A stretch of DNA of 64,000 nucleotides from Sipunculus nudus (Eukaryota; Annelida; Sipuncula; Golfingiida; Sipunculidae): assembly GCA_026874595.1 (NCBI GenBank), contig CM049313.1, positions 32,422,008 through 32,486,007 on the forward strand, read 5' to 3'. Shown here piece after piece: positions 2,557 through 39,309 of the stretch (position 1 is its first letter; the number at the start of each line of letters is the position of its first letter). The position numbers and the translations under genes were made by a program. Below the pieces are notes generated by a model. That model was not told the DNA's origin and ran no database searches. It saw only the letters and a program-made list of their open reading frames with translations.

Positions 2557-3298
2557 GTGTTGTGTGCACCCATGCCAGAATTTCAGCAGTGATGTTTGTG
2601 TAATTGTTTCTTATTCAAAATGTTTAGTACCTGCTTTGTTCATATACATGAGAAGTAATGGTCCAGCATTGAAGCATTATACCTGGTGTATTTCCCAATG
2701 CACAGGTTCGCTTTAGGCCTGTAGGCCTTGTTCAGACTATGAATTGGCTTTTTTAATGATTCCTGATTTATATTTTGGACTCTAAGTCTGATATTAATGA
2801 GGATTACTGTTATAACTATATTTATGTATTAAACTTGGTGTGTTATTTTAATATTTCAAACCACGTTTGAATTCATTTATTTAAAAGAAAATAAAATAAA
2901 ATATATATATAATCCTTCAGATATTTTATTGCCTGGTGTTTTTAAACTCATTCAAATCTCATCTTTCCCTTTTTTAAGAATATAAATATTATTCACTCTG
3001 CGATTTGATATTATAATTATTGTTAATTGCAACTAGGTAAAGGTGCAATTAGGTTCTTTCAGATCATTATTTTAGTAAATCAACATGTTTCATTAAAAAA
3101 ACACGACCGAATCAGAGATTGTAACAGAGGTTGAATCTGTGTTGATTTATTTTGAAAGGTAAAATATACTGAATTATCACGATATTTCACTGCAAAACTT
3201 CATTTGATTATTGAATTTTTATAAAAAAAAGTGTCATGGTCTGTATAAATGTGTTGTTACGGCGTTGATTAATTGTACCTGACCGTTGTTACCTGCAG
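2557..3298. other. Repeat fragment then AT-rich intron, no gene seen
   Basis: Positions 2557-2710 are an inverted match to about 50540-50705: tgtgcacccatgccagaa and cagcattgaagcattatacc recur there in reverse complement. From 2711 to 3298 the sequence is AT-rich with no convincing open frame or repeat. It reads as the intron preceding the exon at 3299, ending in the acceptor gttacctgcag. Confidence 0.5.
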
Positions 3299-3473
3299 AG
3301 TGAGGAAACCGTGGTTCAGTACAGGAGGCAGGGCAACGAGTGCATCGACCAGATGAAAGAGATACTGTGGAAGCTAGGACACCGGCAGCTCAAACCCAAT
3401 GACTGGAAGAAACTGGCCCTGTACTGGAAATTTACAGAGGCTCACATTAGAGCGGTAGAACACCAGTACACAG
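3299..3473 (+). CDS. Internal exon: N-terminal half of a death domain, ANKDD1-like protein
   Basis: This is an internal exon of 175 bp between acceptor ttacctgcag (ending 3298) and donor ACACAG|gtacca (gt at 3474-3475). It reads in phase 0 from AGT at 3299 and leaves phase 1, the last base being the G of a split glycine codon. The peptide starts SEETVVQYRRQGNECIDQ, continues through KEILWKLGHRQLKPNDWKKL and ends with TEAHIRAVEHQYTG. The WKKLA..W.FTE.HI.A.E.QYTG pattern is that of helices 1-4 of the death domain of ankyrin repeat and death domain-containing proteins (ANKDD1A/B). Death domains make homotypic contacts in signalling complexes. The preceding ankyrin exons are not visible and must lie upstream. 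It joins in phase to the exon at 19049. Seen: splice signals, open frame and conserved pattern. Inferred: the family. Another ankyrin/death-domain paralogue is possible. Confidence 0.8.
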
Positions 3474-4439
3474 GTACCATGCACTATACATAACTACACA
3501 CGTACGTAGGCTGTCAGTAGAGCACCAGTACACAGGTACCATACACTATATACGTAACTACACACGTACGTAGGCTGTCAGTAGAACACCAGTACACAGG
3601 TAACATACACTATACATGACTATACACGCACGTAGGTTGTCAGTAGATCACCAGTACACAGGTACCATACACTATATACGTAACTTAAAACGTACGTAGT
3701 TTGTCAGTAGAACACCAGTACACCGGTAACATACACTAGACATAACTACATACGTACGTAGATTGTCAGTAGAACACCAGTACACAGGTACCATACACTA
3801 TATACGTAACTACACATGCACGTAGGTTGTCAGTTGAACGCCAGTACACCGGTAACATACACCATACATAACTACACACGTACGTAGGTTGTCAGTAGAA
3901 CACCAGTGCACAGGTACCATACACTATATACGTAACTACACACGCACGTAGGTTGTCAGCTGAACACCAGTACACCGGTAACATACACCATACATAACTA
4001 CACACGTACGTAGGTTGTCAGTAGAACAACAGTACACATGTAACATACACTATACATGACTATACACGCACGCAGGCTGTCAGTAGAACACCAGCACACA
4101 GGTATAATAAACTATACATGACTACACACGTACGTAAGTTGTCAGTAGAACACCAGTACACTGGTACCATACACTATATATGTAACTACACACGCACGTA
4201 GGTTGTCAGTTGAACACCAGTACACCGGTAACATACACCATACATAACGACACACGTACGTAGGTTGTCAGTAGAACACCAGTACACAGTTAACATACAC
4301 TATACATGACTATACACGCACGTAGGTTGTCAGTAGAACACCAGTACACAGGTACCATACATAATATACGTAACTACACACGCACGTAGGTTGTCAGTTG
4401 AGCACCAGTACACCGGTAACATACACCATACATAACTAC

Positions 4440-7400
4440 ACACGTACGTAGGTTGTCAGTAGAACACCAGTGCACAGGTTCCATACACTATATACGTAAC
4501 TACACACGCACGTAGGTTGTCAGTTGAACACCAGTACACCGGTAACATACACTAGACATAACTAAATACGAACGTAGATTGTCAGTAGAACACCAGTGCA
4601 CAGGTACCATACACTATATACGTAACTACACACGCACGTAGGTTGTCAGTTGAACACCAGTACACCGGTAACATACACCATACATAACTACACACGTACG
4701 TAGGTTGTCAGTAGAACACCAGTGCACAGGTACCATACACTATATACGTAACTACACACGCACGTAGGTTGTCAGTTGAACACCAGTACACCGGTAACAT
4801 ACACTAGACATAACTAAATACGAACGTAGATTGTCAGTAGAACACCAGTGCACAGGTACCATACACTATACACGTAACTACACACGCACGTAGGTTGTCA
4901 GTTGAACACCAGTACACCGGTAACATACACCATACATAACTACACACGTACGTAGGTTGTCAGTAGAACACCAGTACACCGGTAACATACACTAGACATA
5001 ACTACATACGTACGTAGATTGTCAGTAGAACACCAGTACACAGGTACCATACACTATATACGTAACTACACACGCAAGTAGGTTGTCAGTTGAACACCAG
5101 TACACCGGTAACATACACCATACATAACTACACACGTACGTAGGTTGTCAGTAGAACACCAGTACACCGGTAACATACACTAGACATAACTACATACGTA
5201 CGTATATTGTCAGTAGAACACCAGTACACAGGTACCATACACTATATACGTAACTACACACGCACGTAGGTTGTCAGTTGAACACCAGTACACCGGTAAC
5301 ATACACCATACATAACTACACACGTACGTAGGTTGTCAGTAGAACACCAGTACACAGGTAACATTCACTATACATGACTATACATGCACGTAGGTTGTCA
5401 GTAGAACACCTGTACACAGGTACCATACACTATATACGTAACTACACACGCACGTAGGTTGTCAGTTGAACACCAGTACACTGGTAACATACACCATACA
5501 TAACTACACACGTACGTAGGTTGTCAGTAGAACACCAGTACACATGTAACATACACTATACATGACTATACACGCACGTAGGCTGTCAGTAGAACACCAG
5601 CACACAGGTATAATACACTATACATGACTACACACGTACGTAAGTTGTCAGTAGAACACCAGTACACTGGTACCATACACTATATACGTAACTACACACG
5701 CACGTAGGTTGTCAGTAGAACACCAGTACACAGGTAACATACACTATAATACATGACTATACACGCACGTAGGTTGTCAGTAGAACACCAGTACACTGGT
5801 ACCATACACTATATATGTAACTACACACGTACGTAGGTTGTCAGTTGAACACCAGTACACCGGTAACATACACCATACATAACTACACACGTACGTAGGT
5901 TGTCAGTAGAACACCAGTACACAGTTAACAAACACTATACATGACTATACACGCACGTAGGTTGTCAGTAGAACACCAGTACACAGGTACCTGCATAATA
6001 TACGTAACTACACACGCACGTAGGTTGTCAGTTGAACACCAGTACACCGGTAACATACACTAGACATAACTACACACGTACGTAGGTTGTCAGAAGAACA
6101 CCAGTGCACAGGTACCATACACTATATACGTAACTACACACGCACGTAGGTTGTCAGTTGAACACCAGTACACCGGTAACATACACTAGACATAACTAAA
6201 TACGAACGTAGATTGTCAGTAGAACACCAGTGCACAGGTACCATACACTATATACGTAACTACACACGCACGTAGGTTGTCAGTTGAACACCAGTACACC
6301 GGTAACATACACCAAACATAACTACACACGTACGTAGGTTGTCAGTAGAACACCAGTACACAGGTAACATACACTATACATGACTATACACGCACGTAGG
6401 TTGTCAGTAGAACACCAATACACAGTACCATACGCTACATACGTAATTACACACGCACGTAGGTTGTCAGTTGAACACAAGAACACCGGTAACATACACC
6501 ATACATAACTACACACGTACGTAGGTTGTCAGTTGAACACCAGTACACCGGTAACATACACCATACATAACTACACACGTACGTAGGTTGTCAGTAGAAC
6601 ACCAGTGCACAGGTACCATACACTATATACGTAACTACACACGCACGTAGGTTGTCAGTTGAACACCAGTACACCGGTAACATACACTAGACATAACTAC
6701 ATACGTACGTAGATTGTCAGTAGAACACCAGTGCACAGGTACCATACACTATATACGTAACTACACACGCACGTAGGTTGTCAGTTGAACACCAGTACAC
6801 CGGTAACATACACCATACATAATTACACACGTACGTAGGTTGTCAGTAGAACACCAGTACACAGGTAACATACACTATACAGGACTATACACGCACGTAG
6901 GTTGTCAGTAGAACACCAGTACACAGTACCATACACTATATACGTAACTACACACGCACGTAGGTTGTCAGTTGAACACCAGTACACCGGTAACATACAC
7001 CATACATAACTACACACGTACGTAGGTTGTCAGTAGAACACCAGTTCACATGTAACATACACTATACATGACTATACACGCACGTAGGCTGTCAGTAGAA
7101 CACCAGCACACAGGTATAATACACTATACATGACTACACATGTACGTAAGTTGTCAGTAGAACACCAGTACACTGGTAACATACACTATACATAACTACA
7201 CACGTACGTAAGTTGTCAGTAGAACACCAGTACACAGGTACCATACACTATATACGTAACTACACACGTACGTAGGTTGTCAGTAGAACACCAGTATACA
7301 GGTAACATAAACTATACATGACTATACACGTACGTAAGTTGTCAGTAGAACACCAGTACACAGGTACCATACACTATATACGTAACTACACACGTACGTA

Positions 7401-7480
7401 GGTTGTCAGTAGAACACCAGTACACAGGTAACATACACTATAATACATGACTATACACGCACGTAGGTTGTCAGTAGAAC
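4440..7480 (+). repeat. Block duplicated within the satellite (left copy)
   Basis: This ~3.04-kb block of monomers recurs at 11047-14087 with a constant offset of 6607 bp. I checked markers along it: cgaacgtaga at 4821/11428, cgtatattgt at 5201/11808, ttcactatac at 5364/11971 and the ggctgtcagt variant at 5581/12188. Only occasional substitutions separate the copies. The order of variant monomers is preserved, which points to block duplication rather than independent monomer amplification. Confidence 0.85.
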
Positions 7481-10400
7481 ATCAGTACACCGGTAACATA
7501 CACTAGACATAACTACATACGTACGTATATTGTCAGTAGAACACCAGTACACAGGTACCATACACTATATACGTAACTACACACGCACGTAGGTTGTCAG
7601 TTGAACACCAGTACACCGGTAACATACACCATACATAACTACACACGTACGTAGGTTGTCAGTAGAACACCAGTACACAGGTAACATTCACTATACATGA
7701 CTATACATGCACGTAGGTTGTCAGTAGAACACCTGTACACAGGTACCATACACTATATACGTAACTACACACGCACGTAGGTTGTCAGTTGAACACCAGT
7801 ACACTGGTAACATACACCATACATAACTACACACGTACGTAGGTTGTCAGTAGAACACCAGTACACATGTAACATACACTATACATGACTATACACGTAC
7901 GTAGGTTGTCAGTAGAACACCAGTACACAGTTAACATACACTATACATGACTATACACGCACGTAGGTTGTCAGTAGAACACCAGTACACAGGTACCATA
8001 CATAATATACGTAACTACACACGCACGTAGGTTGTCAGTTGAGCACCAGTACACCGGTAACATACACCATACATAACTACACACGTACGTAGGTTGTCAG
8101 TAGAACACCAGTGCACAGGTTCCATACACTATATACGTAACTACACACGCACGTAGGTTGTCAGTTGAACACCAGTACACCGGTAACATACACTAGACAT
8201 AACTAAATACGAACGTAGATTGTCAGTAGAACACCAGTGCACAGGTACCATACACTATATACGTAACTACACACGCACGTAGGTTGTCAGTTGAACACCA
8301 GTACACCGGTAACATACACCATACATAACTACACACGTACGTAGGTTGTCAGTAGAACACCAGTGCACAGGTACCATACACTATATACGTAACTACACAC
8401 GCACGTAGGTTGTCAGTTGAACACCAGTACACCGGTAACATACACTAGACATAACTAAATACGAACGTAGATTGTCAGTAGAACACCAGTGCACAGGTAC
8501 CATACACTATATACGTAACTACACACGCACGTAGGTTGTCAGTTGAACACCAGTACACCGGTAACATACACCATACATAACTACACACGTACGTAGGTTG
8601 TCAGTAGAACACCAGTACACCGGTAACATACACTAGACATAACTACATACGTACGTAGATTGTCAGTAGAACACCAGTACACAGGTACCATACACTATAT
8701 ACGTAACTACACACGCAAGTAGGTTGTCAGTTGAACACCAGTACACCGGTAACATACACCATACATAACTACACACGTACGTAGGTTGTCAGTAGAACAC
8801 CAGTACACCGGTAACATACACTAGACATAACTACATACGTACGTATATTGTCAGTAGAACACCAGTACACAGGTACCATACACTATATACGTAACTACAC
8901 ACGCACGTAGGTTGTCAGTTGAACACCAGTACACCGGTAACATACACCATACATAACTACACACGTACGTAGGTTGTCAGTAGAACACCAGTACACAGGT
9001 AACATTCACTATACATGACTATACATGCACGTAGGTTGTCAGTAGAACACCTGTACACAGGTACCATACACTATATACGTAACTACACACGCACGTAGGT
9101 TGTCAGTTGAACACCAGTACACTGGTAACATACACCATACATAACTACACACGTACGTTGGTTGTCAGTAGAACACCAGTACACATGTAACATACACTAT
9201 ACATGACTATACACGTACGTAGGTTGTCAGTAGAACACCAGTACACAGTTAACATACACTATACATGACTATACACGCACGTAGGTTGTCAGTAGAACAC
9301 CAGTACACAGGTACCATACATAATATACGTAACTACACACGCACGTAGGTTGTCAGTTGAGCACCAGTACACCGGTAACATACACCATACATGACTAGAA
9401 CACCAATACACATGTAACATACACTATACATGACTATACACGTACGTAGGTTGTCAGTAGAACACCAGTACACAGTTAACATACACTATACATGACTATA
9501 CACGCACGTAGGTTGTCAGTAGAACACCAGTACACAGGTACCATACATAATATACGTAACTACACACGTACGTAGGTTGTCAGTAGAACACCAGTGCACA
9601 GGTTCCATACACTATATACGTAACTACACACGCACGTAGGTTGTCAGTTGAACACCAGTACACCGGTAACATACACTAGACATAACTAAATACGAACGTA
9701 GATTGTCAGTAGAACACCAGTGCACAGGTACCATACACTATATACGTAACTACACACGCACGTAGGTTGTCAGTTGAACACCAGTACACCGGTAACATAC
9801 ACCATACATAACTACACACGTACGTAGGTTGTCAGTAGAACACCAGTGCACAGGTACCATACACTATATACGTAACTACACACGCACGTAGGTTGTCAGT
9901 TGAACACCAGTACACCGGTAACATACACTAGACATAACTAAATACGAACGTAGATTGTCAGTAGAACACCAGTGCACAGGTACCATACACTATATACGTA
10001 ACTACACACGCACGTAGGTTGTCAGTTGAACACCAGTACACCGGTAACATACACCATACATAACTACACACGTACGTAGGTTGTCAGTAGAACACCAGTA
10101 CACCGGTAACATACACTAGACATAACTACATACGTACGTAGATTGTCAGTAGAACACCAGTACACAGGTACCATACACTATATACGTAACTACACACGCA
10201 AGTAGGTTGTCAGTTGAACACCAGTACACCGGTAACATACACCATACATAACTACACACGTACGTAGGTTGTCAGTAGAACACCAGTACACCGGTAACAT
10301 ACACTAGACATAACTACATACGTACGTATATTGTCAGTAGAACACCAGTACACAGGTACCATACACTATATACGTAACTACACACGCACGTAGGTTGTCA

Positions 10401-11046
10401 GTTGAACACCAGTACACTGGTAACATACACCATACATAACTACACACGTACGTTGGTTGTCAGTAGAACACCAGTACACCGGTAACATTCACTATACATG
10501 ACTATACATGCACGTAGGTTGTCAGTAGAACACCTGTACACAGGTACCATACACTATATACGTAACTACACACGCACGTAGGTTGTCAGTTGAACACCAG
10601 TACACTGGTAACATACACCATACATAACTACACACGTACGTTGGTTGTCAGTAGAACACCAGTACACATGTAACATACACTATACATGACTATACACGTA
10701 CGTAGGTTGTCAGTAGAACACCAGTACACAGTTAACATACACTATACATGACTATACACGCACGTAGGTTGTCAGTAGAACACCAGTACACAGGTACCAT
10801 ACATAATATACGTAACTACACACGCACGTAGGTTGTCAGTTGAGCACCAGTACACCGGTAACATACACCATACATGACTAGAACACCAATACACATGTAA
10901 CATACACTATACATGACTATACACGTACGTAGGTTGTCAGTAGAACACCAGTACACAGTTAACATACACTATACATGACTATACACGCACGTAGGTTGTC
11001 AGTAGAACACCAGTACACAGGTACCATACATAATATACGTAACTAC

Positions 11047-14000
11047 ACACGTACGTAGGTTGTCAGTAGAACACCAGTGCACAGGTTCCATACACTATAT
11101 ACGTAACTACACACGCACGTAGGTTGTCAGTTGAACACCAGTACACCGGTAACATACACTAGACATAACTAAATACGAACGTAGATTGTCAGTAGAACAC
11201 CAGTGCACAGGTACCATACACTATATACGTAACTACACACGCACGTAGGTTGTCAGTTGAACACCAGTACACCGGTAACATACACCATACATAACTACAC
11301 ACGTACGTAGGTTGTCAGTAGAACACCAGTGCACAGGTACCATACACTATATACGTAACTACACACGCACGTAGGTTGTCAGTTGAACACCAGTACACCG
11401 GTAACATACACTAGACATAACTAAATACGAACGTAGATTGTCAGTAGAACACCAGTGCACAGGTACCATACACTATATACGTAACTACACACGCACGTAG
11501 GTTGTCAGTTGAACACCAGTACACCGGTAACATACACCATACATAACTACACACGTACGTAGGTTGTCAGTAGAACACCAGTACACCGGTAACATACACT
11601 AGACATAACTACATACGTACGTAGATTGTCAGTAGAACACCAGTACACAGGTACCATACACTATATACGTAACTACACACGCAAGTAGGTTGTCAGTTGA
11701 ACACCAGTACACCGGTAACATACACCATACATAACTACACACGTACGTAGGTTGTCAGTAGAACACCAGTACACCGGTAACATACACTAGACATAACTAC
11801 ATACGTACGTATATTGTCAGTAGAACACCAGTACACAGGTACCATACACTATATACGTAACTACACACGCACGTAGGTTGTCAGTTGAACACCAGTACAC
11901 CGGTAACATACACCATACATAACTACACACGTAAATAGGTTGTCAGTAGAACACCAGTACACAGGTAACATTCACTATACATGACTATACATGCACGTAG
12001 GTTGTCAGTAGAACACCTGTACACAGGTACCATACACTATATACGTAACTACACACGCACGTAGGTTGTCAGTTGAACACCAGTACACTGGTAACATACG
12101 CCATACATAACTACACACGTACGTAGGTTGTCAGTAGAACACCAGTACACATGTAACATACACTATACATGACTATACACGCACGTAGGCTGTCAGTAGA
12201 ACACCAGCACACAGGTATAATACACTATACATGACTACACACGTACGTAAGTTGTCAGTAGAACACCAGTACACTGGTACCATACACTATATACGTAACT
12301 ACACACGCACGTAGGTTGTCAGTAGAACACCAGTACACAGGTAACATACACTATAATACATGACTATACACGCACGTAGGTTGTCAGTAGAACACCAGTA
12401 CACTGGTACCATACACTATATATGTAACTACACACGTACGTAGGTTGTCAGTTGAACACCAGTACACCGGTAACATACACCATACATAACTACACACGTA
12501 CGTAGGTTGTCAGTAGAACACCAGTACACAGTTAACAAACACTATACATGACTATACACGCACGTAGGTTGTCAGTAGAACACCAGTACACAGGTACCTG
12601 CATAATATACGTAACTACACACGCACGTAGGTTGTCAGTTGAACACCAGTACACCGGTAACATACACTAGACATAACTACACACGTACGTAGGTTGTCAG
12701 AAGAACACCAGTGCACAGGTACCATACACTATATACGTAACTACACACGCACGTAGGTTGTCAGTTGAACACCAGTACACCGGTAACATACACTAGACAT
12801 AACTAAATACGAACGTAGATTGTCAGTAGAACACCAGTGCACAGGTACCATACACTATATACGTAACTACACACGCACGTAGGTTGTCACTTGAACACCA
12901 GTACACCGGTAACATACACCAAACATAACTACACACGTACGTAGGTTGTCAGTAGAACACCAGTACACAGGTAACATACACTATACATGACTATACACGC
13001 ACGTAGGTTGTCAGTAGAACACCAATACACAGTACCATACGCTACATACGTAATTACACACGCACGTAGGTTGTCAGTTGAACACAAGAACACCGGTAAC
13101 ATACACCATACATAACTACACACGTACGTAGGTTGTCAGTTGAACACCAGTACACCGGTAACATACACCATACATAACTACACACGTACGTAGGTTGTCA
13201 GTAGAACACCAGTGCACAGGTACCATACACTATATACGTAACTACACACGCACGTAGGTTGTCAGTTGAACACCAGTACACCGGTAACATACACTAGACA
13301 TAACTACATACGTACGTAGATTGTCAGTAGAACACCAGTGCACAGGTACCATACACTATATAAGTAACTACACACGCACGTAGGTTGTCAGTTGAACACC
13401 AGTACACCGGTAACATACACCTTACATAATTACACACGTACGTAGGTTGTCAGTAGAACACCAGTACACAGGTAACATACACTATACAGGACTATACACG
13501 CACGTAGGTTGTCAGTAGAACACCAGTACACAGTACCATACACTATATACGTAACTACACACGCACGTAGGTTGTCAGTTGAACACCAGTACACCGGTAA
13601 CATACACCATACATAACTACACACGTACGTAGGTTGTCAGTAGAACACCAGTTCACATGTAACATACACTATACATGACTATACACGCACGTAGGCTGTC
13701 AGTAGAACACCAGCACACAGGTATAATACACTATACATGACTACACATGTACGTAAGTTGTCAGTAGAACACCAGTACACTGGTAACATACACTATACAT
13801 AACTACACACGTACGTAAGTTGTCAGTAGAACACCAGTACACAGGTACCATACACTATATACGTAACTACACACGTACGTAGGTTGTCAGTAGAACACCA
13901 GTATACAGGTAACATAAACTATACATGACTATACACGTACGTAAGTTGTCAGTAGAACACCAGTACACAGGTACCATACACTATATACGTAACTACACAC

Positions 14001-14087
14001 GTACGTAGGTTGTCAGTAGAACACCAGTACACAGGTAACATACACTATAATACATGACTATACACGCACGTAGGTTGTCAGTAGAAC
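11047..14087 (+). repeat. Block duplicated within the satellite (right copy)
   Basis: Right copy of the 4440-7480 block, offset 6607 bp. It ends where the left copy switches at 7482 to a unit beginning with the unusual gaacatcag. Between the two copies, a 1483-bp displacement relates 9005, 10488 and 11971 (the ttcactatac marker), and also 9391 and 10874, where both copies carry the same partial-unit deletion atgactagaa. A 3641-bp displacement links 4281 to 7922. The array therefore has nested higher-order structure. Confidence 0.85.
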
Positions 14088-15157
14088 ACCAGTACACAGG
14101 TACCATACACTATATACGTAACTACACACGCACGTAGGTTGTCAGTTGAACACCAGTACACCGGTAACATACACCATACATAACTACACACGTACGTAGG
14201 TTGTCAGTAGAACAGCAGTACACAGGTAACATACACTATACATGACTATACACGCACGTAGGTTGTCAGTAGAACACCAGTACACAGGTACCATACACTA
14301 TATACGTAACTACACACGCACGTAGGTTGTCAGTTGAACACGAGTATACGGTAACATACACTAGACATAACTACATACGTACGTAGGTTGTCAGTAGAAC
14401 ACCAGTACACTGGTAACACACACTAAACATGACTATACACGTACGTTGGCTGTCAGTAGAACACCAGTACACAGGTAACATGCCCTATACATGAATACAC
14501 ACGCACGTAGGTTGTCAGTAGAACACCAGTACATAGGTAACATACACTTAATATAACTACACACGTACGTAGGCTGTCAGTAGAACTCCAGTACACCGGT
14601 AACATACACTACACATGACTACACACGCACGAATGATGTCAGTAGAACACCAGTACACAGGTATCATACACTATACATAACCACAGACGGACGTAGGCTG
14701 TCAGTAGAACACCAGTACACAGGTAACATACACTATACATGACTACACACGCACGTAGGCTGTCAGTAGAAAACCAGTACACAGGTAACATACACTATAC
14801 ATAAATACACACGTACGTAGGCTGTCAGTAGAACACAAGAACACAGGTATCATACTCTATACATGCCTACACACGCACGAAGGTTGTCAGTAGAACACCA
14901 GTACACAGGTACCATGCACTATACATAACTATACACGCACGTATGTTTAAGTAGAACACCAGTACAAAGGTAACACACACTATTCATAACTACATACGCA
15001 CGTATGTTGTCAACAACTAATATTCTGCTAGAAGGAACAATTACAAGTTCATCATTTTTGCCAATGTTCAGTAAATGTGTAACGATTACTGCTCTAGTTT
15101 TGGTATTGTGTGTCCTTATTTGTTCGTGTTCCACACCGTCAGGACACATGTACACGA

Positions 15158-17050
15158 TTTTTAGCTCAGCTGACTATAAGTCATCTAGATGAAATTTCGG
15201 CATAATGTTAGATGTCCCCAAGAACTCCTACCAAGCCGAAAACTGGGTCTTTGCGACTTCGATCCTTTGAGAAATTAAGGAAAAACCTCAATTTTTTTAT
15301 TAAAAACCTATTTTCACACTTCAGGACTGCCTAATATCGAAACCACTCATCTGTTTTTCCTCTTATATACCATAAATATTCCTCTATATAGTTCCTATGT
15401 ACGTGCCAGAAATTTGGTCTGCATTATATAATTTAAAAAAGTTATTGGCCCAAACATAATGCATTTTGTAAAAAATCAGGAAAGATATTTGATCACTTAA
15501 CACAAAACATGTTAAAGCTATGGACTTTTTTCCAGTTATATAACTTTAATTAATCAAAATTTTAATTGTATACCCAAAATTAGATCTAAATCTTTTAAAT
15601 TTTTTAAAATATTAGCAAAAATAAAAAATTGGTACCTTAAATTTTACCCAACTTTGACCATGGCACGTTTTTTTTTCCTGTTAGTACTGTGGATCTAATT
15701 TTCATAGCATGTACAAATAAGGATTTAATCTGTTAAAATCTGAAATTTGAAAATAAAAGCTGCAAAATAAGGCTAGTTATTGAATTTTTTTGGAGGCTCT
15801 TGTTGTATTTCCTTACATTGTCAAGTAGCCACTGTGGTCACTCTTGGTCATTCAGTGCAGCTCTCTATGCTCCCAAGGTTGTTGGCATAATTTTAGATGT
15901 CCCCAAGATCTCCCAAGCTGAAAACGGGGTCTTTGCGACTTTGTTCCTTTGAAAAATTAAGGAAAAACCTCAATTTTTTTTTATTAAAAACCTATTTTCA
16001 CATTTCAGGACAGCCTAACTACGAAACCACTCACCTGTTTTTTCTCATATTTACCATAAATATTCCTCTATATAGTTCCTATGTACATGCCAGAAATTAG
16101 GTCTGTATTGTATGATTTAAAAAAAGTTATGGGCTCAAACAATGCATTTTGTAAAAAATCAGGAAAGATATTTGATCACTTAACACAAAACATTTTAAAG
16201 CTATGGACTTTTTTTCGAGTAATATATCTTTAATTAATCAAAATTAAATTGTATACATAAAATTAGATCAAAATCTGTTAATTTTTTTAAAATATTAGCA
16301 AAAATAACAAATTGGTACCTTATATTTTGCCTAAATTTGACCATGGCACGTTTTTTTCTTATAAATACATTTGATTTAATTTTCACAGCCAGTTTACATA
16401 TGTATATAATCTGATGAATTTTGAATTTGAAAGTATAAGCTTAAAAAATAGTCTAGCTATTGAAGTTTTTTAGAAGCCTTAATGTATTTGTATTTTCTAG
16501 CATCATGACCCTACTTTTGTTTACCTAGTAATAAAAAATTGGCATAATGTTAGATGTAATTGTAAATATAAGAAAACATAAGAATGGCTGAGACTTTTTT
16601 TTTCAGGAATATAACATCATTTAATCAAAATTCAATTGTATACCGAAAATTAGATATGAAATTTGCAATTTTTTTAAGTTATTAGCATAAATATAAAATC
16701 AGTACCTGAAATTTTGCCCAACTTTGGCCACGGCACGATTTTTTCCTGGAAGTACTGTGGATGTTATTTTCACAGCATGTACACATAAGGATTTAATCTG
16801 TTAAAATCTGAAATTTGAAAAATAAAAGCTGCAAAATTAGGCTAGTTATTGAATTTGTTTGGAGGCTCTTGTTGGATTCCCTTACATTGTCAAGCAGTCC
16901 ACTGAGGTCACTGTAGGTCATTCAATGCAACTCTCTATGCTCCCCAGGCTGTTATGTAATCCCATCACTCGGGCAAGCCCTCTCTCTTGTTGAGCAGTTA
17001 CTAATATTTTCCAAAATTCAGCTGAGCAACGTGACCCATGGGTCCCTTGT
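15158..17050 (-). mobile_element. Family E element with ~700-bp tandem core (E2)
   Basis: The ends are GCTCAGCTGA at 15164-15173 and TCAGCTGAGC at 17018-17027, followed by GACCCATGGGTC at 17033-17044. This orientation places the element on the minus strand. The interior has about three diverged units (15190-15880, 15890-16490, 16540-16950). The first two start with ggcataat and (t)tagatgtccccaaga, and the units share runs such as aaggatttaatctgtt, ttgtcaagtag and ggcacg. The same core occurs in the elements at 26.3-28.9 and 57.5-61.7 kb in plus orientation. No protein-coding frame is present. Inference: a non-autonomous transposon sitting in the death-domain intron. Confidence 0.7.
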
Positions 17051-17945
17051 TTTTATTTTGGAACAAAAATTTGCTAAGCATTAATATATAGCCAGACATC
17101 AACATCAGACAGTGCATAAATGTAAAACATCTATGCCATTTAAGGTGTTTTCGTTAGCTGACAAGCCGTATGCAGCGGCGGATTCGGATCCCTCCCCCTT
17201 TTACGACCTAAAATCTATAAAATACGATGATATTTACTTAATTACGACAAGCAACCCTGAATGGTGGGTTTCCCTTCTTCTTTATTTCAATATTCCTGCA
17301 TGTGAGAGTATGTAGACTTGTTTACCTGTGCCAGTGTGTTCGAGCCCGCCGGTACCATCCCCCCCCCCGATCCTAAACCCGCCCGTTGTAAGAAAACTTG
17401 CATACATACACACACAACACACGTCCTTACTCCTTCTAATTCCATGTCTATATGTGAAGTACCAATTAATTCATAAAATTTCAATAAGACCAGTGTGTGC
17501 CTGTATATACATGAATACGGTCGGTTGAGTGAACATATACAAGTTCATTAGTCATAAGTAAACATTTTTCTACCTGTAGGTACGCCGTATCAGTGGGAAT
17601 GGTCAGTTTTTGGAAAATAATGCCCCAAAGATTAATTTAACCACACATTTTTTTTCGGCGTAGCTCGATAAATCACACCAGATCAGTTGTGTTATACGCC
17701 TTGTAAGGATGTTTAGTTAGTCGCATCAGGAATTTCAAACACACACACAACATTATTATACAGGGAGTAGAAATCCTGTACACAGGTAACTAGAGGTAGA
17801 CCGTGATTGTAATTTGCATATATTTCTCTATTAGAATATCTATTTTTATGGCAAAAAATAAATACATGTGCATGCATAATGTGTTATCTGACAAATTTAG
17901 GGATAAATGGTGATGCAATTTAGAATTGTGCATCAACATATATTC

Positions 17946-18447: not shown

Positions 18448-19305
<858 letters not shown>

Positions 19306-22344: not shown

Positions 22345-24180
22345 ATAAAAAAAAGTACTCTCGTTATCATGGGCAAACTAAGAAAGTACTCTCATCTGTT
22401 ACCATGGGCCAACTAAGAAAGTACTCTCATAACATCTGTTACCATGGGCAAACTAAGAAAGTACCCTCGTTATCATGGGCAAACTAAGAAAGTACCCTCG
22501 TTATCATGGGCACACTAAGAAAGTACTCTCATCTGTTACCATGGGCAAACTAAGAAAGTACTCTCATCTCATATGTTACCATGGGCAAACTAAGAAAGAA
22601 CTCTAATCTGTTACCATGGGCAAGCTAAGAAAGTACTTTTATCTCATCTGTTACCATGGGCTAACTAAGAAAGTACTCTCATCTGTTACCATGGGCCAAC
22701 TAAGAAAGCACTCTCATCTCATCTGTTACCATGGGCAAACTAAGAAAGTACTTTCCTCTCATCTGTTACCATGGGCAAGCTAAGAAAGTACTCTCATCTG
22801 TTACCATGGGCCAACTAAGAAAGCACTCTCATCTCATCTGTTACCATGGGCAAACTAAGAAAGTACTTTCCTCTCATCTGTTACCATGGGCAAACTAAGA
22901 AAGTACTCTCATCTGTTACCATGGGCCAACTAAGAAAGCACTCTCATCTCATCTGTTACCATGGGCAAACTAAGAAAGTACTTTCCTCTCATCTGTTACC
23001 ATGGGCAAACTAAGAAAGTACTTTCCTCTCATCTGTTACCATGGGCAAGCTAAGAAAGTACTCTCATCTGTTACCATGGGCCAACTAAGAAAGCACTCTC
23101 ATCTCATCTATTACCATGGGCAAACTAAGAAAGTACTTTCCTCTCATCTGTTACCATGGGCAAACTAAGAAAGTACTTTCCTCTCATCTGTTACCATGGG
23201 CAAGCTAAGAAAGTACTCTCATCTGTTACCATGGGCCAACTAAGAAAGCACTCTCATCTCATCTGTTACCATGGGCAAACTAAGAAAGTACTTTCCTCTC
23301 ATCTGTTACCATGGGCAAACTAAGAAAGTACTTTCCTCTCATCTGTTACCATGGGCAAGCTAAGAAAGTACTCTCATCTGTTACCATGGGCCAACTAAGA
23401 AAGCACTCTCATCTCATCTGTTACCATGGGCAAACTAAGAAAGTACTTTCCTCTCATCTGTTACCATGGGCAAGCTAAGAAAGTACTCTCATCTGTTACC
23501 ATGGGCCAACTAAGAAAGCACTCTCATCTCATCTGTTACCATGGGCAAACTAAGAAAGTACTTTCCTCTCATCTGTTACCATGGGCAAACTAAGAAAGTA
23601 CTCTCATCTCATCTGTTACCATGGGCAAACTAAGAAAGTACTCTCATCTGTTACCATGGGCCAACTAAGAAAGCACTCTCATCTCATCTGTTACCATGGG
23701 CAAACTAAGAAAGTACTTTCCTCTCATCTGTTACCATGGGCAAGCTAAGAAAGTACTCTCATCTGTTACCATGGGCCAACTAAGAAAGCACTCTCATCTC
23801 ATCTGTTACCATGGGCAAACTAAGAAAGTACTTTCCTCTCATCTGTTACCATGGGCAAACTAAGAAAGTACTTTCCTCTCATCTGTTACCATGGGCAAAC
23901 TAAGAAAGTACTTTCCTCTCATCTGTTACCATGGGCAAACTAAGAAAGTACTTTCCTCTCATCTGTTACCATGGGCAAGCTAAGAAAGTACTCTCATCTC
24001 ATCTGTTCCCATCGGCAAACTAAGAAAGTACTCTCATCTGTTACCATGGGCCAACTAAGAAAGCACTCTCATCTCATCTATTACCATGGGCAAACTAAGA
24101 AAGAACTCTAATCTGTTACCATGGGCAAACTAAGAAACTACTCTCATTTGTAACTATGGGCCAACTAAGAAAGTACTGCG
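22345..24180 (+). repeat. Minisatellite, 35/40-bp unit, about 48 copies
   Basis: The base unit is accatgggcaaactaagaaa followed by gtactctcatctgtt (35 bp). A 40-bp form has an extra ctcat. A ggccaac...gcactctc variant marks a higher-order unit: its positions 22691, 22806, 22921, 23076, 23231, 23386, 23501, 23656 and 23771 are separated by 115 or 155 bp, which is three or four monomers. Edge units at both ends are more irregular. It has no coding potential. Confidence 0.97.
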
Positions 24181-28925: not shown

Positions 28926-29475
28926 CATGTTTCAGTAATACGGCTCACCTGATCAGTTGTGGCCTTTGTCATGCATCAGTAACACGGCTCACCTGACCAG
29001 TTGAGCCCATTTTCATGCATCAGTAACACGGCTCACCTGATCAGTTGAGCCCATTTTCATGCATCAGTAACATGGCTCACCTGACCAGTTGAGCCCATTG
29101 TAATGCATCAATAACACGGCTCACCTGACCAGTTGAGCCCATTTTCATGCATCAGTAACACGGCTCACCTGACCAGTTGAGCCCATTTTCATGCATCAGT
29201 AACACGGCTCACCTGACCAGTTGAGCCCATTGTCATGCATCAGTAACACGGCTCACCTGACCAGTTGAGCCCATTGTCATGCCACAGAAACACAGCTCAC
29301 CTGATCAGTTGAGCCCATTGTCATGCCACAGAAACACAGCTCACCTGATCAGTTGAGCCCATTGTCATGCCACAGAAACACAGCTCACCTGATCAGTTGT
29401 GCCCATTGTCATGCCACAGAAACACAGCTCACCTGATCAGTTGTGCCTATTGTCATGCCACAGTAACACGGACAA
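28926..29475 (+). repeat. Minisatellite, 44-bp unit, about 12 copies
   Basis: The unit is aacacggctcacctgaccag followed by ttgagcccattttcatgcat and cagt (44 bp; for example 28981 to 29025). The last five units use the variant gccacagaaacacagc. Each unit contains the E-box-like CACCTG. There is no coding potential. Confidence 0.95.
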
Positions 29476-30056: not shown

Positions 30057-33000
30057 ACAAGTGACCCATGGGTCATGACGCTCAGCTGACTGGGAAGAGA
30101 TTCACAAAAGGAAATTTTATCATCAGAATGGTAGATTTCAACTGAAGCATCAAACAGATTAACCAACAGGCCAAGATTTAGTCTGTATTTATATATCTGA
30201 AAAATAGAGAAAAAATGTGTAAACTTTAAAAACTAGAATAGCCGACAAGTGACTACGTGTATCTGCAAAAATCAGAGTGAAGTGAGGCATGGATTGAGTG
30301 GCAAGGGGAAACAAAGTGAGGTATGTTGCATATTAGCATGGATGTCTGCAGCCTAAATGTGTATGTAGGTTGTGCAACCTACCACAAATCCAGAAAGCTG
30401 TCCAAGTTGTATACATATGCAAAATTTTAGCCAGTAAAGTCAAACCACTACATGGATATGAGTGATTTTAGCCCACGGCAGACAAACAGACAGACGCTGT
30501 GCAAAAATGGTTCAGTTTTGTGTATGATAAAGACCTATGTGAGATCTAAACACAAGCACAATTTTGGCCCAATCGGTCAAATGGTTCCTCAGATATTAGC
30601 TTGGATGTGTGCAGTGTTAACTAGAATGTAGGTGGCGCCACCTGTCATAAAATCAAGAAAGCTATCCAGGATGTATAAACCTGCAAAATTTTAGGCAGTT
30701 ATGTCAAACCACTACAGAGAAATGAGTGATTTTAGGCCACGGCAGACCAACAGACAGACGCTGTGCAAAAATGGTTGCAGGTGGCCCCTCCAGTTTTGTG
30801 TATGATAAAGACCTATGTGAGATCTATACGCATGCAAAATTTTGGCCCAATCGTTCAAACGGTTCCCGAGATATGAGCTTGGATGTCTGCAGCATAAACT
30901 AGAATAAAGGTGGCGCCACCTGTCATAAAATCAAGAAAGCTATCCAGGATGTATAAAACTGCAAAATTTTAGGCAGACATGTCAAACCACTGCCAAGATG
31001 TGAGTGACTTTATTGCACGGCAGACAAACAGACAGACGCTGTGCAAAAATGGTTGCAGGTGGTGCCACCAGTTTTGTGTATGATAAAGAGCTATGTTAGA
31101 TCTATACACATGCAAAATTTTGGCCCCATCGGTCAAACGGTTCCCGAGATATGAGCTTGGAAAGCTCATAAAATCAAGTCCCAGAGGAGCTCTCTGGAAA
31201 CGAATGCGGCAACGGCGGAGGAACCCGGTCAAAAACATAGATTCCACAAAACTTCGTTTTGGCGGGTACAAAAATACAGGTGGCTCCACCAGTCTGCAAA
31301 ACTAATAAAAACACTTACAAACATCAATATCCATGCAAAGAATCATGGTTATCTCCCCATTAGTTGTTCAGATACTTCAATTTTTGTATCAAATTGTCCA
31401 TGATTCTGAGGGATACTTCGGAGTAATATAGCTTGAAGGATATGGGTAACAGAGACCAAATTTTAAGTTTCCACAGGCACTTTTCATGGGCCTTCTTGCA
31501 TGACAAGAATGAAGATTCTAGGTCCAGTTGTTGCGATTTGTACCCTGTTGACAGAAATCCACATCTTTATCATAGAGGTATCAAAAAAAGAGAAAAAAAA
31601 TCGTAAAAATTTGAAAAAAAATAGAGATGGCGCACCCAGTCTGCAGAAACTGATGGAACAGGTCATGATCAATATGTATGCCGAAAATCATGACCATCAG
31701 TGTTGTAGTTATTGAGATACTGCAGTTTTTGTATCAAATTTTCCATTATTCTGGGGGGTAATTTGGAGCCATACAGCTTAAAGAATATAGGTAACAGAGA
31801 CCTAATTTCAGGTTTCCATGGAGACTTTTCATGGGTCTCCCTGTGTGTCAAGAATGAAGATTCTAGGTCCAGTTTTAATGATTTGTGCCCTGTTAACAGA
31901 TGTTCATAACTTTAAAGGTCTCAAAAATAGAGAAAAAAATTCGTAAAAAAACCCGAACAAATACAGGTGGTGCCACCAGTCTTCAGAAACTGATGAAACA
32001 CTCCATGATCAATATCCATGAAAACAATTATGGTGATCTCTGCATTAGTTGTTCAGATACTTCAGCTTTTGTATCAAATTTTCCATTATTCTGAGCTGTA
32101 CTTTGGAGTGCCATAGCTCAAAGGATATGGGTAACAGAGACCTAATTTCAGGTGTCCATGGAGACTTATCATGGGTCTCCCTGTGTGTCAACAATGAAGA
32201 TTCTAGGTCCAGTCCTTACGATTTGTACCCTGTTGACAGATAACTACATCCTGAAAGGTCTCGAAAATAGAGAAAAAAAAATTGTGAAAATTTGAAAAAA
32301 TACAGGTGGCACCACCAGTCTGCAGGTACTGATGAAACACCTCTTGATCAATATGTATGCCAAAAATCATGACCATCAGTGTTGTAGTTATTGAGATGTT
32401 GCAGTTTGTTTTTATCAAATTTTCCATTATTATGGGGGGTTATTGGGAGCCCCCCATAGCTCAAAGGATATGGGTAACAGAGACCTTATTTCAGGTTTCC
32501 ATGCAGACTTTTTATGGACCTCTCAGTGTGTCAAGAATGAAGATTCTAGGTCCAGTCTTTATGATTTGTGCCCTGTTAACAGCTGTTCACATTTTTAAAT
32601 TCGTAAAAAATCGAAAACTTCAGGTGGCAGCCACCAGTCTGCAGGAAGTGATGGAACATCTCATGATCAATATGTATGCCAAAAATCATGACCATCAGTC
32701 AAGTAGTTAATGAGATATTGAAGTTTTTGTATGAAATTTTTGACTTTTCTGGGGGGTACTTTGGGGCCCCATAGCTCAAAGGATATGGGTAACAGAGATC
32801 TAATTTATGGTTTCCACGGAGACTTTTAATAGGTTTCTCAGTGTGTCGAGAATGAAGATTCTAGGTCCAGCGGTTACGATTTGTGCCACGTTAACAGATG
32901 ACAGCATCTTTAAACGTCTCAAAAATAGAGGAAAAAATTGTAAAAAAATCGAAAAATACAGGTGGCGCCACCAGTCTGCAGGAACTTATGGAACATCTCA

Positions 33001-33298
33001 TGATCAATATGTATGCCAAAAATCATGACCATCAGTGTTGTAGTTATTGAGATATTGAAGTTTTTGTATGAAATTTTTTACTTTTCTGGGGGGTACTTTG
33101 GGGCCCCATAGCTCGAAGGATATGGGTAACAGAGACCTAATTTCTGGTTTCCAAGGAGATTTTTCATGGACCTCTCAGTGTATCAAGAATTAAGATTCTA
33201 GGTCTAGCCTTTACGATTTGTGCCTTGTTAACGGACGGACAGACGGACAAAGAGTGATCGCTATAGCTCAGATGACCTTCAGTCAGCTGAGCTAAAAA
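30057..33298 (+). mobile_element. Family E element with ~340-bp core, interrupted by a family C element (E5)
   Basis: The 5' end has aacaagt, GACCCATGGGTC (30063-30074) and GCTCAGCTGA (30080-30089). The 3' end has ctatagctcagatgac and TCAGCTGAGC (33283-33292). The core (31270-33240) holds six or so units of about 330-340 bp. Each unit has cagtctgca after a GGTGGCGCCACC-like palindrome, then atcatgaccatcagt, ttggggccccatagctc, gatatgggtaacagagacc and agattctaggtcc. A closely similar element without the C insertion lies at 61727-63956, giving an empty-site comparison. Confidence 0.8.
30233..31271 (-). mobile_element. Family C Helitron-like element nested in E5 (C1)
   Basis: Read on the minus strand it ends in a degenerate hairpin (plus-strand gccgacaagtgactac) and CTAG, next to T. 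The subterminal repeat at the other end is ttttggcgggtac (31257-31269), the partner of the degraded gtatctgcaaaa at 30259. The core is a ~278-bp unit: GGTGGCGCCACC at 30631 and again at 30909, each followed by tgtcataaaatcaagaaagc. The flanks (gtgtaaacttt... and ...aaaatacagg) are continuous in the empty copy at about 61895-61920. Confidence 0.7.
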
Positions 33299-34045: not shown

Positions 34046-34051
34046 GGTGAA

Positions 34052-34722
34052 CAGTCACTCTGAGGAAATGCATCAGGGGTTACGTGGAGTGATATCATTA
34101 CTGTTTACTTTGTCATGTACAGTCACTCTGAGGAAATGCATCAGGGGTTATGTGGAGTGATATCATTGCTGTTTACTTTGTCACGTACAGTCACTCTGAG
34201 GAAATGCATCAGGGGTTACGTGGAGTGATATCATTGCTGTTTACTTTGTCACGTGCAGTCACTCTGAGGAAATGCATCAGGGGTTACCTGGAGTGATATC
34301 ATTGCTGTTTACTTTGTCACGTACAGTCACTCTGAGGAAATGCATCAGGAGTTACCTGGAGTGATATCATTGCTGTTTACTTTGTCACATACAGTCACTC
34401 TGAGGAAATGCATCAGGGTTATGTGGGGTGATATCATTGCTGTTTACTTTGTCACGTACAGTCACTCTGAGGAAATGCATCAGGGGTTACATGGAGTGAT
34501 ATCATTGCTGTTTACTTTGTCACGTACAGTCACTCTGAGGAAATGCATCAGGGGTTACGTGGAGTGATATCATTGCTGTTTACTTTGCCATGTACAGTCA
34601 CTCTGAGGAAATGCATCAGGGGTTACGTGGAGTGATATCATTGCTGTTTACTTTGTCATGTACAGTCACTCTGAGGAAATGCATCAGGGGTTACGTGGAG
34701 TGATATCATTGCTGTTTATTGT
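34052..34722 (+). repeat. Minisatellite, 68-bp unit, 10 copies
   Basis: The unit is cagtcactctgaggaaatgc, then atcaggggttacgtggagtg, then atatcattgctgtttacttt, then gtcacgta. Starts are at 34052, 34120, 34188, 34256, 34324, 34392, 34459 (one base deleted), 34527, 34595 and 34663. Copies differ at only a few positions, so the array is young or homogenised. Confidence 0.96.
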
Positions 34723-34906
34723 CTCACGTCGAAAGGTTCCTCAGGTGATTCGCCTTTGACATATAACAGATCATGTAAAGTAGCTTGTATAAATCATTTA
34801 CATTTTTAACAACTCGGTGGCCTGAACAGTTAAAAAAAATTCATTCCCTAGCTTCCAATGTTTTTTAAGACTTTCAAAAAATTGTCCCTGGCAAATAAAG
34901 GAACTT

Positions 34907-37092
34907 GCATTGGCAAATACATGAAGCACTCTTTCTATCACAAATGCATAAATCACTCCATCTAGCAAAGATACATGAAGCCCTCCATCTAGCACAAATA
35001 CATGAAGCACTCCATGTAGCAAAAATACATGAAGCACTCAATCTAGCACAAATACATGAAGCCCTCCATCCAGCACAAATACATGAAGCCCTCCATCTAG
35101 CACAAATACATGAAGCCCTCCATCTAGCACAAATACATGAAGCACTTCATCTAGCACTAATACATAAAGCCCTCCATCTAGCACAAATACTTGAAGCCCT
35201 CCATCTAGCACAAATACATGAAGCTCTCCATCTAGCACAAATACATGAAGCCCTCCATCTAGCCCAAATACACAAAGCCCTCAATCTAGCACAAATACCC
35301 GAAGCCCTCCATCTAGCACAAAATACATGAAGCCCTCAAACTAGTACAAATACATGAAGCACTCTATCCCAAACACAAATACATGAAGCCCTCCATTTAG
35401 CACAACAACATGAAGCCCTCCATCTAGCACAAATACATGAAGCCCTCCATCTAGCACAAATACATGAAGCCCTCCATCTAGCACAAATACATGAAGCCCT
35501 CCATCTAGCACAAATACATGAAGCCCTCCATCTAGCACAAATACATGAAGCCCTCCATCTAGCACAAATACATGAAGCCCTCCATCTAGCACAAATACAT
35601 GAAGCCCTCCATCTAGCACAAATACTTGAAGCCCTCTATCTAGCACAAATACATGAAGCACTCCATCTAGCACAAATACATGAAGCCCTCCATCTAGCAC
35701 AAATACTTGAAGCCCTCCATCTAGCACAAATACTTGAAGCCCTCCATCTAGCACAAATACATGAAGCCCTCCATCTAGCCCAAATACACAAAGCCCTCAA
35801 TCTAGCACAAATACCCGAAGCCCTCCATCTAGCACAAATACATGAAGCCCTCCATCTAGCCCAAATACACAAAGCCCTCAATCTAGCACAAATACCCGAA
35901 GCCCTCCATCTAGCCCAAATACAGGAAGCCCTCAAACTAGTACAAATACATGAAGCACTCTATCCCAAGCACAAATACATGAAGCCCTCCATCTAGCACA
36001 ACAACATGAAGCCCTCCATCTAGCACAAATACATGAAGCCCTCCATCTAGCACAAATACATGAAGCCCTCCATCTAGCACATATGCATGAAGCCCTCCAT
36101 CTAGCACAAATACTTGAAGCCCTCCATCTAGCACAAATAAATGAAGCCCTCCATCTAGCACAAATACATGAAGCCCTCCATCTAGCACAAATACATGAAG
36201 CCCTCCATCTAGCACAAATACATGAAGCCCTCCATCTAGCACTAATACATGAAGCCCTCCATCTAGCACAAATACATGAAGCCCTCCATCTAGCACAAAT
36301 ACATGAAGCCCTCCATCTAGCACAAATACTTGAAGCCCTCTATCTAGCACAAATACATGAAGCACTCCATCTAGCACAAATACATGAAGCCCTCCATCTA
36401 GCACAAATACATGAAGCCCTCCATCTAGCCCAAATACATGAAGCCCTCCATCTAGCACAAATACTTGAAGCCCTCCATCTAGCACAAATACATGAAGCCC
36501 TCCATCTAGCCCAAATACACGAAGCCCTCCATCTAGCACAAATACTTGAAGCCCTCCATCTAGCACAAATACTTGAAGCCCTCCATCTAGCACAAATACT
36601 TGAAGCCCTCCATCTAGCACAAATACATGAAGCCCTCCATCTAGCACAAATACTTGAAGCCCTCCATCTAGCACAAATACATGAAGCCCTCCATCTAGCC
36701 CAAATACACGAAGCCCTCCATCTAGCACAAATACATGAAGCCCTCCATCTAGCACAAATACTTGAAGCCCTCCATCTAGCACAAATACTTGAAGCCCTCC
36801 ATCTAGCCCAAATACACGAAGCCCTCCATCTAGCACAAATACATGAAGCCCTCCATCTAGCACAAATACATGAAGCCCTCCATCTAGCACAAATACTTGG
36901 AGCCCTCCATCTAACACAAATACTTGAAGCCCTCCATCTAGCACAAATACTTGAAGCCCTCCATCTAGCACAAATACATGAAGCCCTCCATCTAGCCCAA
37001 ATACACGAAGCCCTCCATCTAGCACAAATACTTGAAGCCCTCCATCTAGCACAACTACATGAAGCACTCCATCTAGCACAAATATATGCATT
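34907..37092 (+). repeat. Minisatellite, 27-bp unit, about 80 copies, open on both strands
   Basis: The unit is catgaagccctccatctagc followed by acaaata (27 bp, nine codons). It translates as HEALHLAQI on plus and as VLDGGLHVF and CARWRASCI in two minus frames, so frames stay open for up to 340 residues (plus, 36083-37105) and 422 residues (minus, 35937-37205). Variants include acttgaag, acccgaag and tagccc. A block with gtacaaatacatgaagcactc and tatccca at 35343 recurs at 35939, a 596-bp shift (22 units plus 2 bases), which changes frame. I do not call this a gene: no start context, splice site or non-repeat domain supports it. A repetitive low-complexity protein cannot be excluded. Confidence 0.95.
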
Positions 37093-37245: not shown

Positions 37246-39309
37246 AACTAGATGTGTCGGAACGACTCGAATGCCACCGCCTGGGGCAAATTAGAAACAT
37301 TTGTTAAATTTTGAAAAATTTTTTAAGTTCAGGAAGTGTTGTATGGTCAAAAGTAGGTCAACAAGGGCAAAATGCAAACTCGATCTGTAAAGGGTCATTA
37401 TCAAGCAAGACACCAAAAATCAGGCCAGTATCTGCAGGCATTGTGAAAAAAAGTCCATATATGTGCATTTTTCATGAAAATTTCTGTCTTTCATGAAATT
37501 TTCTATGTTCAGGATCTGTCATATGGTGAAAAATAAGTTAACTGGGACGAAACGCGAACTCGATCTGTAAGTGGTCATTATGCGCCCACAGACCTAACAT
37601 TAGGCCAGTATCTGTAAGCATTGTATTGCGAAACTAGAATATTAGCAAAAGTTGATAATCATTTATAAATTTAAATTGGAGAGGTATATACCATGTTTCA
37701 TAACAATCCACCAAATGCTTCCTGAGAAATAAGCTCCTAAGTTTTTTTCTATACTAAGCTCTGTGACCTTGAAAAGTAGGTCAAGATCACCCATCTTTGA
37801 ACTTGACCAAGATTTTGTAAATATAATGCAATAGCACTGAAGAAATGTAGTTCCTGTGTTGAATACCTTTGGAGATATCCTGCACAAAAGGCCAAAATTG
37901 AAAAAATCCGATAAAATTTCATTAAAAATTCAGAAATTGCAGGTGGCACCACCAAAATTGTGCAGCACATACAGACCATCAGTCCCAATGATCATAGTAA
38001 GTTTTGTGAAAATCCACACAATGGTTCCTGAGATATAAACTTCTGAGTGTTTTTCTATAATCAGCTCTAAAATGTAGAAAAATGGGTCAAGGTCACCCAT
38101 CTTCGAACTTGACCTAGATTTTATCGATATACATCTTCACTGATGAAATAAAATTCCAACGGTGAATCCTTTTAGAGATATCCCGCTCACAAGGTAAAAG
38201 GTAACAGACGCGGAACGGACGGACGGACAGACAGACACCGGACAGACAGATGGACAGACGGACAGCTTGGGTGACGACAATAGCCCATCAGCCTATGAGC
38301 TGAAGGCTAAAAACGGCTGTACATGTGTATTTGTCATGAAAATTTCTATTTTTCATGAATTTTTCTAAGTTTAGGAGCCGTAAAACGGTCAAAAGTAGGT
38401 CAACCGGGACAAAACGCGAACTCGATCTGTAACTGGTCATTATCTGCCCACACACCAAAAATCAGGCCAATATCTGCAGGCATTGCAAAAAAAAGTCTGT
38501 ACATGTGTATTTGTCATGAATATTTCTATTTTTCATGAATTTTTCTAAGTTTAGGAGCCGTAAAACGGTCAAAAGTAGGTCAACCGGGACGAAACGCGAA
38601 CTCAATCTGTAACTGGTCATTATCTGCACACACACCAAAAATCAGGCCAATATCTGCAGGCATTGCGAAAAAAAGTCTGTACATGTGTATTTGTCATGAA
38701 AATTTCTATTTTTCATGAAATTTTCTATGTTTAGGAGCCGTAAAAACGGTCAAAAGTAGGTCAACCAGGACGAAACGCAAACTCGATCTGTAACTGGTCA
38801 TTATCTGCCCACACACCAAAAATCAGGCCAATATCTGCAGGCACTGCGAAAAAAAGTCCGTACATGTGTATTTGTCATGAAAATTTCTATTTTTCATGAA
38901 ATTTTCTATGTTTAGGAGCCGTAAAACGGTCAAAAGTAGGTCAACCGGGACGAAACGCGAACTTGATCTGTAACTGGTCATTATCTGCCCAAACACCAAA
39001 AATCAGGCCAATATCTGCAGGCATTGCGAAAAAAATTCCGTACATGTGTATTTGTCATGAAAATTTCTATTTTTCATGAAATTTTCTAAGTTTAGGAGCC
39101 GTAAAACGGTCAAAAGTAGGTCAACCGGGACGAAACGCGAACTCGATCTGTAACTGGTCATTATCTGCCCACACAACAAAAATCAGGCCAATATCTGCAG
39201 GCATTGCGAAAAAAAGTCCGTACAACTGTTTGATTTCGGAATGACGGAATGACGGAATGACGGACATGGGTAAAACTATATGCCCCGGCCACTTTGTGGC
39301 GGGGGCATA
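37246..39309 (+). mobile_element. Element with 180-bp tandem core and terminal hairpin
   Basis: It starts near aactagatgtgtcggaacga. Two diverged core units (37290-37640) are followed by a non-core segment (37640-38310) carrying ggtcaaggtcaccc and a gacggacagacagac run. Five regular units of 180 bp follow (acatgtgtat at 38321, 38501, 38681, 38862 and 39042). Each has aaaacggtcaaaagtaggtc, actcgatctgtaactggtca and atcaggccaatatctgcagg. The right end has three copies of gacggaat, then a 13-bp-arm hairpin at 39280-39308. No coding frame is present. Similar tandem-core elements are known in bivalves; assignment here is by architecture only. Confidence 0.65.
39280..39308 (+). other. Strong hairpin at element end
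   Basis: The arms are ATGCCCCGGCCAC (39280-39292) and GTGGCGGGGGCAT (39296-39308), with one mismatch and a three-base TTT loop. It is very GC-rich compared with its surroundings. It lies at the right edge of the 180-bp-core element and may be its 3' structural end. Confidence 0.75.

Follow-up and report, generated by a model that had tools for sequence, protein, structure and literature searches.

Turri, Cuin and Porter reportedly showed in 1995 that a minisatellite in the human gene IFI6 (6-16, G1P3) supplies multiple splice donor sites. Two downstream repeat units of this minisatellite are reported to serve as donors (PMC4526556). In human ABCA7, the VNTR of intron 18 adjoins exon 18, the donor GT being the first two bases of a 25-base unit that is described as intronic; alleles run from 298 to 10,678 bp, with up to ~427 units, and with longer arrays exon 19 is skipped more often and expression falls (PMC5954066). 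A cryptic donor inside the ABCA7 array retains one unit, breaking the frame, an event that is rare (2 +/- 1%) and independent of array length (PMC5954066). Introns are also recognised to change through tandem duplication over their boundaries with exons: in the Rogers model of intron gain, discussed for the potato RdRp gene, a boundary-crossing duplication reuses the splice signals (PMC4974935).

Here we describe a tandem array found in the window, that is, the whole stretch of 64,000 nucleotides of Sipunculus nudus DNA that was analyzed. It is a further donor-spanning intronic minisatellite of the ABCA7 and IFI6 kind, set apart by a unit that contains coding bases: an array of short units that starts inside the end of an exon, includes the presumed donor at 3474 and carries donor-like sites in part of its downstream units. 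As in ABCA7, the array flanks an exon, includes its donor and reaches a similar size, being known here from the DNA of one assembly; unlike the ABCA7 unit, which begins at the GT, the present one holds 19 coding bases, and most of its junctions make an AG. In IFI6 the unit and the array are far shorter and the downstream donors keep the reading frame, whereas here the donors of units 2 to 5 meet a stop codon. With intron gain under the Rogers model this locus has in common a tandem duplication across an exon-intron boundary, but nothing suggests that an intron was gained; instead, one that was already there, and that other genomes apparently have as well, became longer. The initial annotation had called repeats that incorporate a donor rarely described; two human minisatellites that span a donor are already in print. 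Literature searches for satellite DNA arising at an exon/intron boundary, and for a VNTR tandem repeat at the splice donor of an exon-intron boundary, found no match. The array looks like a non-mammalian counterpart of the ABCA7 VNTR, against which the splicing effect of long donor arrays might be compared.

The host gene and its splice junctions

The window lies on contig C8 of a genome of 1.43 Gb in 153 contigs, and its main features are collected in Table 1. When joined, the two death-domain exons match Pfam Death with an E value of 1.8e-9; the first of them translates as SEETV...IRAVEHQYT, its final 19 bases being part of repeat unit 1. Ankyrin-like exons were found within the 20 kb that precede the window (L001 and L002) on the same strand as the death-domain exons. 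These upstream exons, the C-terminal death domain and a match to gecko ANKDD1A (P0003), the sole homologue with a gene name, indicate that the host is apparently an ANKDD1A-like gene of an animal. A protein search of the genome revealed no paralogue of this gene; it gave at least two matches, both of them the window exons.

Table 1. Coordinates of the exons, the presumed donor and the tandem array in the window.
Feature	Positions	Strand	Basis
Coding exon of ANKDD1A-like (ankyrin-repeat/death-domain) gene, apparently penultimate	3299..3473	+	First part of death domain; Pfam Death; homologues P0002/P0003; cag acceptor 3296-3298
Presumed true 5' splice site: CAG|GTACCA, GT of the donor at 3474-3475	3471..3479	+	Frame and protein continuity with 19049
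Tandem array, 185 units, mostly 62 or 64 bases	3455..15012	+	Wraparound alignment; Tandem Repeats Finder
Unit 1, presumed ancestral: 19 coding (3455-3473) and 43 intron bases	3455..3516	+	Wraparound alignment; 24-base core match
Array core, long exact duplication: 8998-10417 identical to 10481-11900	8998..11900	+	
Diverged units 176-185 at the right edge; nine of the ten are 62 bases long; rare variants in common with unit 1	14394..15012	+	
Following coding exon, apparently last	19049..19305	+	Death domain completed here; stop codon ends at 19305

The intron between 3473 and 19049 measures 15.6 kb, of which the array makes up 11.5 kb. Its presumed donor is without G at +5 and is weak by a human donor matrix. 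Splicing most likely still joins the donor at 3474 to the acceptor ending at 19048, as no other donor is attached to a whole exon that has an acceptor of its own.

Anatomy of the array

By wraparound alignment the array is 11,558 bases long and consists of 185 complete units, opening in phase 0 of a 62-base consensus and closing in phase 61; Tandem Repeats Finder gave 185.0 copies within the same limits. Both the count of about 185 repeats over 11.6 kb in the initial annotation and its reading of the first monomer as the last coding bases plus about 43 intron bases agree with these unit alignments. Unit length is 62 bases in 112 units, 64 in 59 and another value in 14; there are 71 distinct units, with a mean distance to the consensus of 0.068. 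Allowing up to 3 mismatches, a 24-base core of the unit had 179 matches in the window, 178 of them inside the array, and none in 100 shuffles.

The variation among units is ordered along the array. Near-identical twins are present for core units and absent for edge units, and of the 18 units with private variants 15 fall within units 1-13 or 173-185. A variant of unit 1 at column 27 is restricted to units 1, 177 and 184; another, at column 57, is carried by 12 units, five at the right edge (176, 178, 180, 181 and 182), three at the left (1, 2 and 10) and four in the core (34, 58, 140 and 164). The core is marked by long exact duplications, the longest of which spans 1420 bases and recurs 1483 bases further on (Table 1), with another at 5494-6282 (offset 6607). 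Exact copies longer than 1 kb inside a homogeneous array are what would be seen if the array length, or the recent core duplications, were partly an artefact of assembly; we regard this as improbable, the edges being diverged and ordered, and the argument on origin developed below rests on those edges and not on the copy number.

Origin of the array

The proposal of the initial annotation, that local amplification at the exon/intron boundary gave birth to the array, is the reading we favor, and we give local tandem duplication across this boundary a probability of about 85%. It is sustained by the ancestral coding end of the unit, the whole units, the presence of unit-1 variants at the far edge and the finding of no second copy of the gene. 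The 19 coding bases of the unit encode VEHQYT of the death domain, and the exon end reads AVEHQYTG here, AIEHQYTG in P0002 and AIEHQWAG in P0003. Because the source is conserved coding sequence, it is possible to tell which unit was the founder and that the change went from gene to repeat, making this, with its most diverged units at the edges, an unusually legible birth of a tandem repeat.

Eight homologues were found (P0002-P0009), seven of which reach the intron site, while P0009 begins further on. In five of the seven (P0004-P0008, on ENA contigs between 1.4 kb and 1.2 Mb long) the similarity starts, within a residue, at the glycine codon that opens the next exon, a break that genomic read-through would show and which therefore suggests a shared intron position; P0006-P0008 are mutually close, and the five are not independent witnesses of the intron. 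The other two run through the site: P0003 is a UniRef protein, and P0002 is predicted on a 1071-base contig. The unbroken P0002 counts against a shared intron, but would be accounted for if its contig were a transcript or came from a relative that lacks the intron. Judged from these alignments, the exon end is older than the array, and the intron position most likely is older as well.

A different history, in which a pre-existing satellite from elsewhere was inserted at the exon end, has to be weighed against the repeat content of this genome. In a sample of twenty 10-kb stretches (200 kb, two per contig from C1 to C10) tandem repeats made up 17.7% of the sequence, with a longest sampled array of 6.2 kb; in the window they reach 42.6%, or 29.9% when the array at 3455-15012 is left aside. 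In a genome so rich in tandem repeats, which speaks for insertion, it is not astonishing that an array should chance to begin in an exon. Insertion also finds some room in the searches of the unit DNA against the whole genome, done twice, which gave candidates too many for scoring; these may be other copies or just the 185 units here. Nevertheless, when up to 4 substitutions were allowed, the 24-base core was present in none of the 20 sampled stretches nor in the 20 kb upstream (L001 and L002), the first unit is conserved coding sequence in frame, and the unit-1 variants recur at the far edge. Moreover, the whole number of units favors duplication of a resident sequence, as a foreign block would end in this phase by chance about once in 62. 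We thus consider insertion very unlikely. As to the name satellite used in the initial annotation, the array is indeed a tandem repeat, but with a single location known the label is too strong, and intronic minisatellite describes it better.

Returning to local duplication, diverged edges and a duplicated core fit in-place expansion by unequal exchange, from which old edges and a young core are the expected pattern. Against origin by duplication, 4 of the 12 column-57 units sit in the core, and the presumed sites of the first breaks, TGTCA|ACAAC and GAGCG|GTAGA, show no apparent microhomology. In the sequence of events that we envisage, a 62-base segment astride the exon-intron boundary would first have undergone tandem duplication where it stood; through unequal exchange or replication slippage the count would then have risen to 185 units within the intron. 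The true exon would have retained unit 1, while the remaining units would have become an intronic minisatellite, drifting and being homogenised, with their donor-like sites left unpreserved.

Donor-like sites in the units

The initial annotation held that each unit keeps a CAG|GTA(C/A) site, but this is true of 73 of the 185 units. CAG|GT is found in 84 and AG|GT in 86, unit 1 included, so that AG|GT has been lost from 99; the commonest single form at the donor position is CCG|GTAACA (62 units), and some GT lies within a few bases of that position in all 185. The nine donor columns have a mean diversity of 0.153 and rank 58 among the 62 circular 9-base stretches of the unit (1 being the most conserved), whereas the 19 columns that stem from the exon take rank 20 of 62 and are only slightly less variable than the intron columns (pi 0.094 vs 0.109). 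Selection keeping the donors is unsupported, the donor 9-mer being among the most variable stretches. Selection on the coding sense of the copies was also considered: third codon positions account for 149 of 204 variant copies, yet for 10 of 25 distinct variants, and since the excess comes from a few variants that got amplified, it is no evidence of selection.

Could the downstream donors and the AGs at unit junctions really be used, as a bank of decoy donors, or as micro-exons of 18 nt that keep the frame, so that hexapeptides resembling VEHQYT are inserted or productive splicing is titrated? By the human matrix the authentic donor is outscored by 102 of the 185 units, equalled by 52 (unit 1 included) and higher than 31, and 51 other units carry a 9-mer identical to it; GT sites scoring at least as high, by the same matrix, occur at 32.4 per kb in the array vs 6.5 per kb outside, a roughly fivefold density. 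These figures favor use of the array, as does the in-array donor of ABCA7, which retains one unit in some transcripts; they are set against the loss of AG|GT in more than half of the units, the small difference in variability between exon-derived and intron columns, and, in ABCA7 itself, the rarity of that retention whatever the array length (PMC5954066). In all four cases considered (the donors of units 2, 3, 4 and 5) the extended exon reaches a stop, HQYTGTMHYT*, which truncates the death domain. Occasional use of a later donor would extend the exon into this stop and yield less protein, a cost in expression rather than a function.

The junctions bear on the second part of this rival. An AG is present at 181 of the 184 unit junctions; in 168 of these 181 a GT at the donor position follows 18 nt past the AG, delimiting a segment in frame and without a stop, and in the other 13 it follows at 17 nt. 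VEHQYT is encoded exactly by 119 of the 18-nt segments. However, the pyrimidine share before the junction AGs is 0.468, which is close to that of the other AGs in the window (0.476) and lower than the 0.647 seen at each of the two real acceptors; neighboring micro-exons would be spaced by just ~44 bases, and the first two units show no RNA structure beyond that of shuffles (z +0.56). The micro-exon mimic that the initial annotation saw in gttgtcag|tagaac holds for the AG and the in-frame 18 nt, and fails for the pyrimidine tract, which is absent. Taken with the donor data, we think it unlikely that the array is used in either way. It would be a very long shot that a share of transcripts carries VEHQYT insertions in the death domain, drawn from the at most 168 candidate self-contained, frame-keeping micro-exons (AG, 18 coding bases, GT) and tuning or diversifying the adaptor. 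A function through the extra splice sites is unproved, and from the sequence their maintenance by selection seems unlikely.

Competition of the array donors with the true donor would be possible in principle, because the authentic donor is weak by the human matrix and 51 other units carry its exact 9-mer. The idea that the array could compete for U1 or alter splicing stands to this extent, weakened by the units without AG|GT, the high variability of the donor and the background level of pyrimidines. If the decoys are silent, the locus is a natural test of exon definition, in which a weak donor would be shielded from 51 identical competitors.

Other repeats in the window

In the same intron, 2.75 kb past the array, an isolated plus-strand segment at 17767-17790 agrees in 21 of 24 bases with the donor-bearing part of the unit (none in 100 shuffles) and was considered as a second copy of the exon. 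When the alignment was widened, however, 1 and 3 of 300 randomised introns did equally well under two schemes, and the match is either a decayed stray copy or due to chance. Two segments, at ~15160-17055 and 1747-2560, start with ttttagctcagctgac and end in the similar inverted sequence ttcagctgagc...gacccatgggtcc; by eye they look like non-autonomous mobile elements.

A 27-base array of 80 copies at 34914-37088 has a unit length that is a multiple of 3 and long open stretches on both strands, with up to 429 open codons on the minus strand and plus-strand peptide repeats like IHEALHLAQ. More tandem arrays are located at 22363-24177 (40-base unit), 28932-29471 (44), 34051-34729 (68), 38309-39224 (180) and 47048-47923 (33). 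Units of ~277/278 and 337/340 bases recur at 30513-33232, 41896-42727, 50822-51585, 54425-55598 and 62337-63870, several of them containing ggtggcgccacc; arrays of 278-280 and 336 bases, likened to these by unit length, were seen on other contigs (L005, L007 and L021) and on the same contig (L019 and L020). Finally, a two-copy tandem of 148 bases at 49558-49855 has a 100% match between its copies, and a two-copy 148-base array also occurs in a sampled stretch (L013); likened by unit length, the tandem may represent a dimeric element that is dispersed in the genome rather than something that arose recently at this site.
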